Source of the DNA: Acidobacteriota bacterium
Lineage (GTDB): Bacteria > Acidobacteriota > Terriglobia > UBA7540
DNA length: 9,194 nt
Assembly: GCA_003165615.1 (NCBI GenBank)
Contig: PLWR01000344.1
Location: 2,003 to 11,196, forward strand
Direction: 5' to 3'
Both the position numbers and the translations under genes were made by a program. Positions 1 to 4,628 of this stretch are shown here, in pieces. Every line of letters begins with the position of its first letter. The first letter of the stretch is position 1. The notes beneath the pieces were generated by a model. That model was not told the origin of the DNA. It was given only the letters and a program-made list of their open reading frames with translations, and ran no database searches.

Positions 1-1655
1 TCCGAGTACCCCAGCATCACTTCCTGAAAGTCGTTGCGCGCCCGTAGAATGCGGCGGTAGATAGGATCGGCGAACAGCTCCTCCATGATGTGCGGGCCGG
101 CTTCCAAATCGTCGAGCGTTTCGAAAAGAGGAATAACATCGAGGCGGGAATGCAAACGGCGGCCGCGCGGTTCCACCAATCCCGTTTGCCGCGCCAGCAA
201 CAGCACGTCCCACACATCGGCCGCACTGGACGTCATGCTCAGAACGTAACGATACGCCGCCCCTTCCCCGTTGCGAACCTGGATGGTGCGGAGGGCGCGG
301 AATTCCTCCAGTACATGGAGCGTAGCCGCTGAAAAAGATGGACGCGGCACGGATTGAAAAAGCATTCGCTGGATCGATTGGATGCGCGCGTCGTCAGGCT
401 CAGTGGGCAGGTGCGCCTGGCGCAAAACCTCATCCGCGGCGGCGCGAGTGGCACGCGAGTGGGTGCGGAAGTCCAGGCTGGCTCCGTGAAAACCAAAAAC
501 CTGTGAGGCCACACGCAGGCGGCCGGGCCCCAGGCGCGCAATCCGCGGACTGGGATAAGCAGTCAGCAGGTCCGTCAACTTGCGCAATTCGTGCGTAAAT
601 TCCTGCGCTGTTGCGTATGCGCCCGGGGCGCGCTCCGTCGTGCGCTCCAGCCGCCACATCATGATGCGCAGCTTGCGGCGGTAGAGTTCGCTGGGCTGGT
701 CAACAGCTTCAAAAGCCCGGGTGGCGGGATAACGCCGCATGTCCCGGTCGATTTCGCGGCGCAGAGTCGCTGCCAGACGTGGGTTATTACAGGGGAACGA
801 GGCCCAGCCCAACATACGGTTGCAGGCTCCGTGGTAATAGCGAAGAATGCTCCGGCGCACCTGCTCCGCGGCTTCCAGGCTTGTCTCCGGTGTCACGAAG
901 GGATTGCCATCTCGGTCCGTCCCTACCCATGATCCCAGGCTCAAAAAGGGGACAGGCTCCGGCAGGCTCGGATAGCGGCGAACCATCTCCGCGCAAAACT
1001 TTTCCCAAAAGCTCCCCGCCAGGTCGTAGATGGTGCGTTCCAGGAAAAAGCGGGCGTTCTCACTTTCCATCTCCGGCGTCACCACGCCCTCACGCACCTC
1101 ATCGGTAAGCCATAGGGCTTCAATCCATGAATCGACGTCCCGCTCTGCGGCGGGGGTCAGGTCACCGCAGGCGGCATCCAGGGTTCTGCCCAGGCGCAGG
1201 ATGTGATTCAGAACGCTGCGGCGCTTGGCCTCCGTGGGGTGGGCGGTCAGCACCGGCTCAATGTGCATGGACTCCAGCAGCTTTTTGACGGCCGCGGCGG
1301 GCACCCCCTGCCGGCGCAATTCGCTGAACGTATGGCGCAAAGACATGGGCGCGCCTGTTCCTTGCTGGTCATGCGCGCGCAGGTGGCGGATGCGCTCGCG
1401 TTCCTCGCAAAGATTGACGAGGTGAAAGAAGAGGCTGAAAGCATGCGCGACAGCCGCGGCCTTCTCCACGGAAAGGCGGTTGACCGCGCGCTCCTTGGCC
1501 TTCAGAAGCTTGGCATTAGGGGTTTGGCGGATTTGCTTGGCAACTTTGCGCAGGACTTCAATGGCCGCAAACACTTCCGGCCCCGACTGCTCGCGAACAA
1601 TCGCGCCCAGCCGCGTCGTCAGGAACCGCACTTCCTGTCGCAAACGTTCATTCAT
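1..1655 (-). CDS. ppc: Phosphoenolpyruvate carboxylase, N-terminal 551 codons (runs off the left edge)
   Basis: The enzyme carboxylates phosphoenolpyruvate with bicarbonate to oxaloacetate, refilling the TCA cycle and feeding aspartate synthesis. The frame is open from ATG at 1655 to the window edge with no stop or frameshift. Visible motifs: VLTAHPTEAKRR (135-146) with the catalytic His at 139, matching E. coli His138; GSWVGTDRDGNP (241-252); FGFHGASLDFRTHS (387-400) with Arg397 matching E. coli Arg396; PLFETLDDLE (509-518); and VMLGYS (546-551), where the window ends inside the usual GYSDSxKDAG motif. Roughly the C-terminal 40% is missing, including the remaining catalytic Arg/Lys and effector-binding residues. 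The start fits because MNERLRQEVRFL aligns with the E. coli N-terminus. No Shine-Dalgarno sequence is visible before it; the mRNA there is pyrimidine-rich, from repeat array 1. It lies 113 bases downstream of thrC on the same strand, so co-transcription is plausible. Confidence 0.95.
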   Translation of the reverse strand, partial: MNERLRQEVRFLTTRLGAIVREQSGPEVFAAIEVLRKVAKQIRQTPNAKLLKAKERAVNRLSVEKAAAVAHAFSLFFHLVNLCEERERIRHLRAHDQQGTGAPMSLRHTFSELRRQGVPAAAVKKLLESMHIEPVLTAHPTEAKRRSVLNHILRLGRTLDAACGDLTPAAERDVDSWIEALWLTDEVREGVVTPEMESENARFFLERTIYDLAGSFWEKFCAEMVRRYPSLPEPVPFLSLGSWVGTDRDGNPFVTPETSLEAAEQVRRSILRYYHGACNRMLGWASFPCNNPRLAATLRREIDRDMRRYPATRAFEAVDQPSELYRRKLRIMMWRLERTTERAPGAYATAQEFTHELRKLTDLLTAYPSPRIARLGPGRLRVASQVFGFHGASLDFRTHSRATRAAADEVLRQAHLPTEPDDARIQSIQRMLFQSVPRPSFSAATLHVLEEFRALRTIQVRNGEGAAYRYVLSMTSSAADVWDVLLLARQTGLVEPRGRRLHSRLDVIPLFETLDDLEAGPHIMEELFADPIYRRILRARNDFQEVMLGYS

Positions 1656-1665
1656 AAGTGGAAAC

Positions 1666-1759
1666 CAGGAGTCAGGAGACGGGAGTCAGGAATCAGAATG
1701 TCTTGCCGGCCTGCGTGTTGCCTTCATTCTGACTCCTGACTCCTGTCTTCTGTCTCCAC
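1666..1759. repeat. Two-armed heptamer repeat array 1 (CAGGAGT type), imperfect inverted repeat
   Basis: The left arm holds five consecutive 7-base units: CAGGAGT, CAGGAGA, CGGGAGT, CAGGAAT, CAGAATG (1666-1700). The right arm holds the same kind of unit on the opposite strand: CATTCTG, ACTCCTG, ACTCCTG, TCTTCTG, and a weaker TCTCCAC (1725-1759). Positions 1668-1700 pair with 1725-1757 at 29 of 33 bases, leaving a 24-base GC-rich spacer (1701-1724). The array fills most of the 113-base gap between the thrC stop and the ppc start, so a transcript would carry a long hairpin there. There is no T-tract, so it is not a classical intrinsic terminator. Repeat structure is read directly from the sequence; any function (termination, mRNA stability, gene-to-gene expression ratio, or an inert mobile repeat) is inference. 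Confidence 0.9.
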
Positions 1760-1768
1760 CTCGCTACC

Positions 1769-3070
1769 CTATCTGCCCGCAGCCATCGGCCTCAGCGCGC
1801 GCTTCAATTCCCGGCGCAGCGAGGCCAGGTCAGGTTCGACTTGCAGTCGCTGGCTGTTTTCCTGGTCTTCCGAGCGGTGGCGCATGATGTACTCGGTATC
1901 TTTGAGTTGGTTGCCGGTAAGGACGCAGACGATGTCGGCGTGCCTTTCGATCTTGCCCGCCCGCACCAGCTTGCGCACGCCGGCGATGGTGGCGGCGGAA
2001 GCAGGCTCGCAGCCCACGCCATCTTCGGCCAGAACGCGTTTGGCCTCAAAGATCTCCTCATCCGTCACCGACTCGCAGAACCCGCCCGCCCAATCAAGCG
2101 CCCGCTTCGCTTTTTTCCAGTTGGCAGGATGGCCAATGCGAATGGCCGTAGCTTCCGTGTTCGGGTTCTCAACCGCCAGCAAGTCGGGCGCTCCGGCGCG
2201 CAAAGTTTGGTAGAAAGGGTTGGCGCCTGCCGCCTGAACAATAACGATGTGGGGCACTTTTTCAATGAGGCCCAAATCCTTGAGCTCGCGCAGGCCTTTG
2301 CCGATAGCGGAAGAATTCCCCAGGTTGCCGCCTGGAACCACAATGTAATCCGGAGGCCGCCAGGCGCGCTGTTCCAGCAACTCAGCGACGATGGTCTTCT
2401 GCCCTTCAATGCGGAAGGGATTGATGGAATTCACCAGATAGAGTCCCAGCTCGGGGGCGATCTCTTGCAGCAGGCGGAAAGCTTCATCGAAATTGTCGCC
2501 CACTTCCACCACCAGCGCGCCAAAGTCAAGCGCCTGGGCCAGCTTGGCGGCGGAGATTTGTTTGTAGGGAACAAACAGCAGCGCCTTCATGCCGGCGCGC
2601 GCCGCGTAAGCCGCCATGGAAGCGGAGGTGTTACCAGTTGAAGCACAAGCCACCAAGCGGACTCCGCGCGACTCCGCGCGAGTTATGCAGGCCGACATGC
2701 CGAGATCTTTAAAGGAGCCCGTGGGATTGTTGCCTTGATGTTTAATGGTCAGGTGGACCGGGCCGGCCCACCAGCCCGTCCGCCGGGTTCCGACCAACGG
2801 CGTAGAGCCTTCGGAAAGTGAAATGATGCGTGCGGTGGAACCCACAAAAGGAATCAACTCGCGGAAGCGCCATAATCCGCTGCGGTCGATCGGTTCGCCG
2901 CTCAGCCGGCGCTGGTGCCAGGTGCGCCGAAGCTGCTCCGGGTCGAAGGGATCAAAATTATATTTAACATCGAGCAGGCCACCGCAGAATTCGCAGGCGT
3001 GCAGGTCCTTCCGGGGGTCCTGCCGGCGCCCACAGGCTTCCTCGATACATTGGAGATAGGCGGAAGACAT
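1769..3070 (-). CDS. thrC: Threonine synthase (PLP-dependent, fold type II)
   Basis: The enzyme converts O-phospho-L-homoserine to L-threonine and phosphate in the cytosol, the last step of threonine synthesis. The protein is 433 residues. It begins with a Cys-rich zinc-ribbon-like segment (Cys8, Cys13, Cys26, Cys29), as in the longer class of threonine synthases. Family motifs follow: LSEGSTPL (85-92), NPTGSFKDLGMS (115-126) with PLP-binding Lys121, ACASTGNTSAS (141-151), the phosphate-binding loop VPGGNLGN (245-252), and a C-terminal VLTGNQLKDTEY. The last 40 or so residues are a charged tail of unknown role. A short AGGA lies 4 bases before the ATG and directly abuts heptamer array 2. Threonine dehydratase and cysteate synthase share the fold, but the zinc-ribbon start and the STGNTSAS/GGNLGN pair favour ThrC, as does lysC upstream. 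Confidence 0.95.
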   Translation of the reverse strand: MSSAYLQCIEEACGRRQDPRKDLHACEFCGGLLDVKYNFDPFDPEQLRRTWHQRRLSGEPIDRSGLWRFRELIPFVGSTARIISLSEGSTPLVGTRRTGWWAGPVHLTIKHQGNNPTGSFKDLGMSACITRAESRGVRLVACASTGNTSASMAAYAARAGMKALLFVPYKQISAAKLAQALDFGALVVEVGDNFDEAFRLLQEIAPELGLYLVNSINPFRIEGQKTIVAELLEQRAWRPPDYIVVPGGNLGNSSAIGKGLRELKDLGLIEKVPHIVIVQAAGANPFYQTLRAGAPDLLAVENPNTEATAIRIGHPANWKKAKRALDWAGGFCESVTDEEIFEAKRVLAEDGVGCEPASAATIAGVRKLVRAGKIERHADIVCVLTGNQLKDTEYIMRHRSEDQENSQRLQVEPDLASLRRELKRALRPMAAGR

Positions 3071-3077
3071 AAAATCC

Positions 3078-3171
3078 TAAAGGGTAAAGTGTAAAGGCAA
3101 AAGGGTAAAGGAATACAGCACGCGCCTTACACTTTATCCTCTACCCTTTATCCTTTAAACTTTGCCCTTCT
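3078..3171. repeat. Two-armed heptamer repeat array 2 (TAAAGGG type), imperfect inverted repeat
   Basis: The left arm is five contiguous heptamers: TAAAGGG, TAAAGTG, TAAAGGC, AAAAGGG, TAAAGGA (3078-3112). The right arm (3123-3171) is seven heptamers of the same type on the other strand: CGCCTTA, CACTTTA, TCCTCTA, CCCTTTA, TCCTTTA, AACTTTG, CCCTTCT. Positions 3080-3112 pair with 3137-3169 at 28 of 33 bases, with a 24-base spacer containing two of the right-arm units. AAAGGGTAAAG occurs twice, 21 bases (three units) apart. The array sits between lysC and thrC, ending 7 bases before the thrC start and 14 bases after the lysC stop. Its AT-rich composition contrasts with the GC-rich genes on both sides. 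No T-tract terminator is present. Function is unknown. Confidence 0.9.
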
Positions 3172-3185
3172 GCGGCACCGCGAGT

Positions 3186-4628
3186 CTAACTCGTTCCCAG
3201 CGTGAACTCTTCGTGAACAGCCTTCACGGCCTCCTTGACGTCGGAGGCTTTCACGGCAAAAGAAATGCTCAATTCGGAGGACCCTTGGGCGATGGCAATA
3301 ATGTTGATCCCGTGCCGTCCCAATGACCCGAAGGTACGGCCGGCGATGCCCGGCGTGCCCTCCATGTTTTCACCAATCGCCACCACGATCGCCACGTGGG
3401 GCATGACTTCAATCGATACCCTGTCATCGTGGAGCATTTCCAGCTCAAAAGTTTTTTCCAGTTGGGCCCTCACACGGCGCAAATCGGCATCATGCACGGC
3501 AAAACACAGCACGTTATCGGCGGAGGACTGCGTGACCATCAGTGTGGGAATTTCATCCAGGCTGAGCGAACCGAAGGCTTTGGCCGCCAGTTGGGGAAAG
3601 CTCAGTGATTCCTTGCCGCTAATGGTGATAAGGTCGGCCTTGCTGACGGAAGTGATGGCCTTGACGCCCTTTTGGCTATTGGTGGCGGTAGGAACGATGC
3701 ACGTGCCGCGACATGTGGGATTAAAACTGTTTTTGATCCAAACCGGGATTTTCTTTTTCATGACGGGTTGGATGGTTTTGGGGTGCAGGACCTTGGCGCC
3801 GAAAAACGAAAGCTCAATGGCCTCACGATAAGAAATTTCCGGCAAAATGTGCGCTTCCGGAACTAGGCGAGGGTCGGTGGTCATGACGCCATCGACGTCC
3901 GTCCAAATCCAGACCTCGTCAGCATCCAGAGCGGCTCCCACAATCGTGCCACTGTAATCGGATCCGCCCCGGCCGAGCGTGGTGCAAGCACCCGCACGCG
4001 TTGCGCCACGGAAGCCGGTGATGATCGGAATCACGCCGCGTTTCCGCAACCCCGCCAGGCGTTGCCGGGTTTTGACATTGGTTTCTTCGAAGATGGGCGT
4101 GGCGTTGCCGAAACAATCGTCGGTCACAATCAGTTCGGTGGCGTCCACGGCTTCCGCGGGAATCCCACGCGACCGCAGGATGGCCGCCACCAGGTTCGCG
4201 GACATCACTTCTCCCAAACTGGAAAGTGTGTCCATGGCTCGCGGCGTAACCTCGCGCACCAGCGAGAACCCTGAGCAGAGATTTTCAAAATCGGCCACGG
4301 CGTCGGCGAGTCGGGGCAGAACCGCGGCTTGCTCAGCAGCTTTCAGAAGCTGGTCGGCAACCTCGCGGTGACGGTGGGCCAGTTCGCGGCGGACGTTCTT
4401 CCAGTTCTCGCGGTCGCCCTGGCTGGCTTCGTTGGCAGCGCGGATCAGCATGTCCGTAACGCCACCCATGGCGGATACCACCACTACAAGCTCCGCCCGT
4501 TGGGCGTGGTCGGCGAGGATCTCCGCCACGTTTTTCATCCTCTCCGCGTTACCCACGGAGGTCCCGCCGAACTTCATGGCGATGAGCGGCTTCTTGCTCT
4601 TACTGGCAATTGGATTTTCTTTCACCAT
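3186..4628 (-). CDS. lysC: Aspartate kinase (monofunctional, with C-terminal ACT domains)
   Basis: The enzyme phosphorylates L-aspartate to 4-phospho-L-aspartate, the committed and usually feedback-inhibited step to lysine, threonine and methionine. The protein is 480 residues. The amino-acid-kinase domain spans about 15-310: KFGGTSVGN (19-27), VVVSAMGGVTDML (49-61), SSLGE (136-140), GRGGSDYSGT (219-228), WTDVDGVMTTDPR (242-254) and FFGAKVLHPKTI (275-286). Two ACT domains follow, about 323-395 and 410-475. The second contains TPGIAGRTFGSLGRHGINI (425-443), typical of the allosteric amino-acid site. There is no homoserine dehydrogenase domain, so it is not a ThrA/MetL fusion. The length fits the LysC/AK-III class rather than the roughly 410-residue Corynebacterium-type enzyme. 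AGGGG lies 8 bases before the ATG. It is followed by thrC and ppc on the same strand and preceded by the LysR gene. Which end product inhibits it cannot be read from the sequence. Confidence 0.95.
   Translation of the reverse strand: MVKENPIASKSKKPLIAMKFGGTSVGNAERMKNVAEILADHAQRAELVVVVSAMGGVTDMLIRAANEASQGDRENWKNVRRELAHRHREVADQLLKAAEQAAVLPRLADAVADFENLCSGFSLVREVTPRAMDTLSSLGEVMSANLVAAILRSRGIPAEAVDATELIVTDDCFGNATPIFEETNVKTRQRLAGLRKRGVIPIITGFRGATRAGACTTLGRGGSDYSGTIVGAALDADEVWIWTDVDGVMTTDPRLVPEAHILPEISYREAIELSFFGAKVLHPKTIQPVMKKKIPVWIKNSFNPTCRGTCIVPTATNSQKGVKAITSVSKADLITISGKESLSFPQLAAKAFGSLSLDEIPTLMVTQSSADNVLCFAVHDADLRRVRAQLEKTFELEMLHDDRVSIEVMPHVAIVVAIGENMEGTPGIAGRTFGSLGRHGINIIAIAQGSSELSISFAVKASDVKEAVKAVHEEFTLGTS

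Follow-up and report, generated by a model that had tools for sequence, protein, structure and literature searches.

Intercistronic hairpins of inverted heptamer arrays in an acidobacterial lysC-thrC-ppc region as probable gene-free members of an S23-associated element family

A 9,194-nt stretch of an Acidobacteriota genome (GenBank assembly GCA_003165615.1, contig PLWR01000344.1, positions 2,003 to 11,196; here called the window) contains two hairpins, one in the lysC-thrC gap and one in the thrC-ppc gap, whose arms are tandem heptamers in inverted orientation. We consider it likely that they belong, as members lacking an open reading frame (ORF), to a family of small elements that lie between genes and are related to the intervening sequences (IVSs) of 23S rRNA genes. 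S23 genes stand between inverted arms in several phyla, S23 lineage and arm unit match, and two of five pairs of S23 elements are homologous from arm to arm. Salmonella has short, ORF-less IVSs. The IVS of Coxiella burnetii, which is 428 nt long, has a 28 bp stem formed by terminal inverted repeats and an S23 gene in its loop (PMC4990558; this and the other papers cited by PMC number are described from their accessible sections). Tandem heptamers lie between its 5' end and the start of the S23 protein (S23p), in a copy number that depends on the strain, and an RNase III site is located in the stem at the first heptamer repeat (PMC4990558). S23 is a four-helix-bundle protein with no known function, and the authors of the Coxiella study conclude that its S23p is undergoing decay and probably goes unmade (PMC4990558). 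This conclusion favours a greater importance of the RNA or DNA of that copy than of its protein.

The cyanobacterial short tandemly repeated repetitive sequences (STRRs) are dispersed tandem heptamers of several units, and we know of no description of inverted pairing or of an S23 link for them. The heptamers GGGAATC of Xanthomonas and GGGGA(C/T)T of Nostoc usually come as four units and are mostly intergenic, between codirectional ORFs; two genomes contain 70 and 75 inverted pairs of them in convergent arrangement, five unit positions are conserved, and the repeats were studied as one unit type per organism and interpreted as G-quadruplexes (PMC4692102, where Calothrix heptamers are also cited). 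Unlike these, the window arms, with units CAGGAGT and TAAAGGG, never contain four GGG tracts in any arm of either hairpin, as inspection of the sequence showed. The accessible sections of the Xanthomonas study make no mention of S23, although that species is also the source of the S23 structure Xcc0516. TAACTGA of Beggiatoaceae and cyanobacteria also forms intergenic heptamer arrays, with related heptamers mixed into some sets; it differs from the hairpins treated here in that 169 sets are direct and one is inverted, mostly just upstream of start codons (PMC4679880). A general link between S23 and heptamer arrays was not found in a literature search that lay mostly outside subscription journals and included the accessible sections of PMC4692102, PMC4679880, PMC4990558, PMC3936711 and PMC4060949. 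The original prediction for this stretch knew of no named family with such a form. Inverted heptamer pairs in Xanthomonas (PMC4692102) and the heptamer-bearing IVS of Coxiella (PMC4990558) are in fact published, and the accessible sections of neither work name a general family.

The two gaps were confirmed as hairpins of inverted heptamer arrays with different units. Their lengths of 113 and 115 bases were as predicted, and ungapped inverted-repeat scoring (+1/-2), which set the limits of arms and spacers, reproduced the predicted 33-nt arms and 24-nt spacers in both. The different units were borne out by Tandem Repeats Finder (TRF), which placed CAGGAGT at 1666-1696 and TAAAGGG at 3078-3111, plus their inverted counterparts.

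1656..1768, minus strand: gap 1, thrC-ppc intercistronic hairpin without an ORF, CAGGAGT unit; 113 nt from the thrC stop to the ppc start, inverted-repeat score 21
1668..1700, unstranded: left arm of hairpin 1, about 4.7 heptamers of the CAGGAGT type (TRF and inverted-repeat scoring)
1701..1724, unstranded: spacer of hairpin 1, 24 nt (inverted-repeat scoring)
1725..1757, unstranded: right arm of hairpin 1, inverted heptamers (TRF and inverted-repeat scoring)
3071..3185, minus strand: gap 2, lysC-thrC intercistronic hairpin without an ORF, TAAAGGG unit; 115 nt, inverted-repeat score 18
3080..3112, unstranded: left arm of hairpin 2, TAAAGGG type (TRF and inverted-repeat scoring)
3113..3136, unstranded: spacer of hairpin 2, 24 nt (inverted-repeat scoring)
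3137..3169, unstranded: right arm of hairpin 2, inverted heptamers (TRF and inverted-repeat scoring)

The range 1656-3185 also spans the entire thrC gene, which is outside the feature. Each hairpin takes up almost its whole gap: the outer ends of hairpin 1 lie 12 and 11 nt from the genes, and those of hairpin 2 lie 9 and 16 nt from them. Self-identity of the arms at lag 7 was 0.73 in hairpin 1 and 0.71 in hairpin 2, compared with 0.34 (gap 1) and 0.50 (gap 2) at the best other lag from 3 to 13 and 0.68-0.74 at lag 14. RNA folding gave z values of -5.9 for gap 1 and -5.6 for gap 2, and none of 200 shuffles folded equally well. A known RNA family was considered and rejected, as nothing in the window reached an Rfam family threshold.

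Like 23S IVSs, the window hairpins have terminal inverted repeats, here of 33 nt, that form a long stem, and like the Coxiella IVS they have tandem heptamers in that stem, a feature described for Coxiella and not part of the general definition of an IVS (PMC4990558). They differ from 23S IVSs in standing between protein genes rather than inside a 23S rRNA gene, and the intergenic elements in general differ in having many copies and many unit sequences per genome. In contrast to the long IVS forms, the 24-nt spacers of the window hairpins hold no S23 ORF, which is present in relatives.

A scan blind to unit sequence showed that the two hairpins belong to a class. It covered an unselected sample of 1.60 Mb, consisting of contigs of nine related Acidobacteriota genomes chosen by runs of contig numbers (L072-L211; L and G numbers are our handles for loci and genomes), and a wider sample of about 2 Mb that added the window and acidobacterial thrC loci. 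The cut-offs were a score of at least 15 for tandem arrays and of at least 13, with arms of at least 16 nt, for inverted repeats. The 1.60 Mb contained 51 tandem arrays at lag 7, 37 at lag 14, 17 at lag 21 and 12 at lag 28, and 40 summed over the other 25 lags between 2 and 30, where one poly-C run gives one at each lag. Among 176 inverted repeats in the wider sample the best period was 7 in 61, another (4, 8, 9 or 10) in 14 and none in 101; the 1.60 Mb alone held 45 with period 7, as taken from per-genome rates. Chance is excluded as the source because order-2 Markov controls of 3.2 Mb yielded almost no such structures (20 inverted repeats, of which a single one had period 7, while lags 5-9 were free of tandem arrays). 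The 96 arrays had 51 distinct consensus units, unlike the repetitive extragenic palindromic sequences and bacterial interspersed mosaic elements (REP/BIME), which have one conserved palindromic consensus in many copies. This diversity upholds the claim that the form is kept while the unit sequence differs, and not by copying of one element; with 61 heptamer hairpins in about 2 Mb, the window's two are not the only ones.

The heptamer hairpins do form a genuine class, but not one governed by the 33/24 geometry. Across the 61 hairpins, arm length ranged over 16-53 nt (median 25) and spacer length over 0-202 nt (median 31), with a soft excess of spacers at 20-31 nt (19 of 61), and a 33/24 geometry rule was rejected since the lengths have no such mode. 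Four combinations of arm and spacer length occurred twice among the 61 (one pair besides the window's may be orthologous), so the exact match is not special. The original prediction had itself stated that lengths scattered without a mode would make the shared architecture a coincidence; by this criterion the numerical match is coincidental, and the caution that it may be partly fortuitous agrees with this scatter. The original reading of purine-rich arms pointing inward holds for both window hairpins, whose left arms are purine-rich and which, as inverted repeats, read the same on either strand; across the class it is a tendency, the 5' arm being purine-rich in 22 of 32 codirectional hairpins and 43 of 59 S23 elements.

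The link to S23 came from the relatives. In the lysC-thrC gap of L028, orthologous to gap 2, inverted TCAGCNN arms enclose an ORF that matches PF05635, 23S_rRNA_IVP (E 5.8e-39), and TIGR02436, four helix bundle protein. Three further PF05635 genes, found by tblastn (L116, L134 and, in two pieces, L118), are likewise flanked. Matches to PF05635 numbered 113 in 12 relatives, fragments included, and none were detected in 14 control genomes. A set of 70 S23 genes was composed of four from loci in hand, 50 of the 113 matches in relatives (10 at first, another 20 from the top of the remainder and a last 20 with mainly lower scores) and 16 plasmid genes from 30 records with a match (14 of Cyanobacteria, one each of Azospirillum lipoferum and Gemmatirosa). 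When the two 300-nt flanks of each gene were matched in inverted orientation at a score of at least 13, inverted flanking arrays were detected around 61 of the 70 genes (48 of the 54 acidobacterial and 13 of the 16 plasmid genes), with a best period of 7 in 51, 8 in eight and another in two. By comparison, 3 of 150 random short ORFs of unselected loci were armed (350-nt flanks), two of the three with heptamers, as were 4 of 109 short ORFs with 30-300-nt gaps on both sides (300-nt flanks); one of these four is the S23 gene of L118 and another, L077, is heptamer-armed but not S23. In a separate S23 set from IMG/VR contigs, 10 of 15 genes were armed, nine with period 7, and the arms of L301 and L302 were identical. 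The array-rich genomes G001, G003, G004 and G008 had 11-19 S23 matches, and G005, G006 and G009, whose samples were array-free, had 2-7. A dedicated enzyme was among the processes originally proposed to generate or maintain the form; the S23 protein is a candidate for it, encoded outside the window.

S23 protein and repeat unit go together. Across the 51 heptamer-armed S23 genes, protein distance correlated with the distance between units read in a fixed orientation (Mantel r 0.275, p 0.0002), compared with an r of 0.017 against the reverse-complement unit. The correlation was similar when each orthologous site contributed a single gene (r 0.266, n=46, p 0.0002; there were five orthologous pairs) and in Acidobacteriota alone (r 0.311, n=35, p 0.0002). 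Units differed on average at 1.36 of 7 positions when the proteins were 70-80% identical and at about 3.5 when they were 10-30% identical. For a forward prediction, nine acidobacterial genomes were searched for the S23 nearest to that of Nostoc ATCC 53789, which has CAGGAGT/CAGAAGT arms, and the two best (65% and 63% identity) were selected before their flanks were seen. The expected CAGGAGT-type unit was clearly present in both arms of one locus (L295, score 12) and weakly so in the other (L296); units within one change of CAGGAGT account for 5 of the 51. The CAGGAGT type of hairpin 1 serves as S23 arms in L295, L281 and L285, and an AAAGGGT type, whose likeness to the TAAAGGG of hairpin 2 is looser, does so in L261, L286 and L291. 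The window hairpins have the two bounding inverted arrays of period 7 or 8 by which S23 elements are recognised, and their unit types are also seen as S23 arms.

A full-length element measures about 490 nt and consists of a tandem heptamer or octamer array, an S23 gene and a second copy of that array in inverted orientation, whereas an ORF-less one has only a spacer between its arms. The arms of S23 elements have a median of 4.1 units (n=59), with four units in 27. Sorted conservation per position within the heptamer was 0.62, 0.77, 0.91, 0.97, 0.98, 0.99 and 1.0, a slope that sorting alone would make; the two loosest positions were adjacent in 20 of 32 clear S23 cases (p 0.001, one third expected by chance) and in 22 of 43 in a wider array set (p 0.015). 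The element of Nostoc edaphicum follows a TraM-domain gene and that of Geminocystis an AAA ATPase gene, yet the two align over 477 nt at 72%, from the left arm into the right arm; those of Nostoc ATCC 53789 and Scytonema align over 411 nt at 78%, likewise from left arm to right arm. Of the five pairs compared at different sites, these are the only two whose alignment includes both arms; in two others it covers a single arm, and in the fifth it stays inside the gene. These alignments suggest that S23 elements move as a unit. The S23 of Xanthomonas campestris is a toroidal homopentamer (PMC4990558), and S23 matched PDB 2gsc, which has five chains (E 2.4e-21). The bAvd/Avd proteins of diversity-generating retroelements are a homologous four-helix bundle, with weak matches only (NF033474, E 1.9e-5; PF22296, E 2.2e-6), below curated cut-offs.

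Several side observations concern the S23 elements. Octamer arms surround the S23 genes of L234, L241, L272-L275, L283 and L292; the proteins of L272-L275 are mutually closest or near-closest by identity, and the other octamer-armed ones are scattered. The S23 gene of L268 lies within perfect 33-nt inverted arms with a 15-nt unit. S23 genes with inverted arrays also occur on IMG/VR contigs (L298-L308), so phages or prophages may carry the elements. On plasmids, the S23 gene is codirectional with both neighbours in 11 of 14 annotated loci. S23 elements were seen inside CRISPR (clustered regularly interspaced short palindromic repeats) operons of cyanobacterial plasmids (L279, L283, L288), in the orders cas6/S23/cas4 and cas10/S23/cmr3. 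A published survey lists 18 such S23 genes in cas loci (PMC3936711), and insertions of this kind may explain the reports of 23S_rRNA_IVP as cas-associated.

The hairpins separate minus-strand genes in the order lysC-like (4628..3186), thrC-like (3070..1769) and ppc (1655..3).

3..1655, minus strand: ppc, phosphoenolpyruvate carboxylase, partial, cut by the window end (PF00311, E 1.8e-106); downstream neighbour of hairpin 1
1769..3070, minus strand: thrC-like pyridoxal phosphate (PLP) enzyme (PF00291, E 1e-66); stands between both hairpins
3186..4628, minus strand: lysC-like aspartate kinase (PF00696 and ACT_9); upstream neighbour of hairpin 2

We take 1769..3070 to be thrC from sequence and context, and 3186..4628 to be lysC from domains and context. 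The nearest relatives are Acidobacteriota metagenome-assembled genomes (MAGs), some labelled subdivision 13 or gp13, and the closest ThrC, 94% identical, is in L001. The lysC-thrC gap was readable in 27 loci, the window included, and seven of these have a heptamer inverted repeat, with TAAAGGG in the window and L001, a GGATTCA type in L004 and L016, a TCAGCNN type in L013 and L027 and GTCGACA in L026. The TCAGCNN-type arms of L013 and L027 enclose no gene, L008 and L019 have weak arrays only, and L023 has a GxxExxY gene between period-8 arms. Nine further genomes, which brought the gaps read to 36, had no hairpin in the lysC-thrC gap and a single array in one. The thrC-ppc gap has CAGGAGT in the window, GGCAGTA in L001 and GATGAAT in L024. 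Turnover of the unit at a fixed site is thus directly observed. In L001 the end of lysC, in this closest relative, extends into the TAAAGGG array (L001:5437-5463), which shows that arrays may reach into the last part of a coding sequence.

GxxExxY genes (PF13366, PDDEXK_3) were also seen between inverted arrays, of period 8 in L023 (8330-9110) and period 9 in L314 and L317. Four of seven GxxExxY loci tested scored at least 16 (L314, L316 and L317 among them), with 6 of 8 records in the plasmid sample. They too stand between operon genes, as between fabD and fabG in L315, which has no clear arms. The GxxExxY-bearing form is possibly a sister kind of element.

Several results weigh against the S23 interpretation of the window hairpins. 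Nine of the 70 S23 genes (L235, L236, L256, L271, L277, L278, L289, L293, L294) had flank scores of only 7-12, two of them at 12, and 5 of the 15 IMG/VR genes lacked arms, four of these being weak partial matches. Both forward-predicted loci, at 12 and 11, fall below the cut of 13, and L296 has a short imperfect CAGGAGT-type form without a tandem array at score 7. Only two of the five element pairs align arm to arm. Array density and the number of S23 genes correspond only in part, since the genome densest in arrays, G013, has only 3 S23 matches. A search of 24 ORF-less hairpins whose spacers are 60 nt or longer revealed no S23 remnant; the idea that such hairpins are S23 elements in visible decay was rejected on this ground, and because of this result the descent of ORF-less from S23-bearing forms is not established. 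An empty site was not demonstrated at the lysC-thrC gap, where the heptamer-free gaps are 40-175 nt long and unaligned. In 14 hairpins, mirroring of the arms variant by variant did not exceed block shuffles (p 0.92 when combined, p 0.043 for the longest by itself), a comparison that is underpowered and on which arms as exact mirror copies were rejected. Finally, mismatches on the transcribed strand were G-U in 24 and A-C in 16 cases in heptamer hairpins (p=0.27) and 42 and 38 in S23-bearing elements, which is within chance. Because G-U does not clearly exceed A-C, there is no sign that RNA pairing is selected. As an observation in its own right, G013 is a distant acidobacterial MAG with long perfect arrays of CCGTTAA and CAAAATC (L148, L149, L238).

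Polymerase slippage with a preferred 7-nt step, in which inverted copies arise by template switching and S23 merely tolerates or prefers such places, is an unlikely explanation of the class. A 7-nt slippage has been proposed for the excess of heptanucleotides (PMC4679880, PMC4692102), and about half of 72 arrays chosen by lag 7 alone (one of them poly-C) had no inverted partner that was found. Slippage, however, yields direct and not inverted copies, and the same 72 arrays had an inverted partner within 250 nt, at a score of at least 14, in 35 cases versus a direct partner in 7, with no partners at random loci; inversion is intrinsic to lag-7 arrays. Inverted partners 200-1500 nt away formed only five pairs in acidobacterial loci, two around S23 genes, two as cross-pairs of neighbouring hairpins (L205) and one of period 8 without S23 (L083). 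Slippage also leaves unexplained the position of 61 of 70 S23 genes between arms, the octamer arms and the match of S23 lineage with unit, and 100 kb of Escherichia coli K-12 had no tandem array at the lags tested (5-9 and 14).

Slightly less probable still is that selection for intercistronic RNA hairpins, acting in mRNA stability, the uncoupling of neighbours or termination, keeps the form and that the units are incidental. Good folding agrees with it, as does the placement of the hairpins: 37 in gaps of up to 400 nt lie a median of 11 and 13 nt from the genes and fill a median of 80% of the gap, compared with 51% for 49 non-heptamer inverted repeats in such gaps. So does orientation, with 32 of the 61 hairpins in codirectional gaps (32 of the 47 that lie between genes), 11 in convergent and 4 in divergent ones, 8 at edges and 6 inside ORF calls. 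Against a background of 708 gaps of at least 60 nt from a smaller locus set (399 codirectional, 154 convergent, 155 divergent), this split shows that the hairpins are mainly depleted in divergent gaps. RNA shape, on the other hand, requires no period of 7, and only 9 of the 36 lysC-thrC gaps contain a hairpin or related element. Neither hairpin has a terminator-like site, and an intrinsic terminator was rejected, as the sole such site in 1600-3300 is inside thrC in a scan of loops of 3-8 nt only. With the G-U counts given above, selection for RNA shape, which had also been offered as an origin of the form, is unsupported in hairpins and S23 elements alike. Ordinary miniature inverted-repeat transposable elements (MITEs) with an undiscovered transposase, the heptamers as their terminal inverted repeats and S23 as a passenger, are very improbable: the terminal inverted repeats, the two pairs of five that are homologous from arm to arm, the ORF-less copies and GxxExxY as another small gene between inverted arrays would suit them, but S23 is the recurrent cargo, and the arm unit can be predicted from its lineage, which would not be expected of a passenger.

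If the window hairpins are, as we think likely, ORF-less members of an S23-associated family, an S23 ring probably reads the arms. By this proposal, an S23 homopentamer would recognise its cognate array with one heptamer per subunit, in which roughly five positions would be fixed and two free. If each subunit of such a ring had one site, the units read would be evenly spaced, at 7 or 8 nt, and the linker positions between them would be free to vary. Recognition by S23 would drive dispersal and upkeep of the arms, and where one genome has several units, these would reflect S23 proteins of differing specificity that act in cis or in trans. Transcribed arms would form a long stem cut by RNase III, by analogy with 23S IVSs, and insertion between the genes of an operon might be tolerable because the stem would be cut. 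The position of the Coxiella heptamers at an RNase III site leads us to propose that the intergenic elements form a single family with the 23S IVSs and that their transcripts are cut at the stem. Much more tentatively, and with more doubt than conviction, much of the class of bacterial heptanucleotide repeats, familiar for decades (the STRRs, GGGAATC of Xanthomonas and perhaps TAACTGA of Beggiatoa), could be the footprint of one ancient S23-dependent superfamily, with the 23S IVSs as its rRNA branch and the S23 genes of cas operons as further insertions. In such a superfamily, a pentameric S23 ring would read its own array unit by subunit, much as TRAP reads spaced triplets, and would disperse and rebuild inverted arrays.

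These results join two old puzzles, the dominance of heptamers among the long simple repeats of many bacteria and the role of the widespread S23 protein. If S23 does read the arrays, both would be testable with one small protein and short oligonucleotides. The S23 genes in cas loci (PMC3936711) could then be insertions, many unexplained intergenic hairpins would gain a name, and the fragmentation of 23S rRNA would become a conspicuous instance of something general among intergenic elements.

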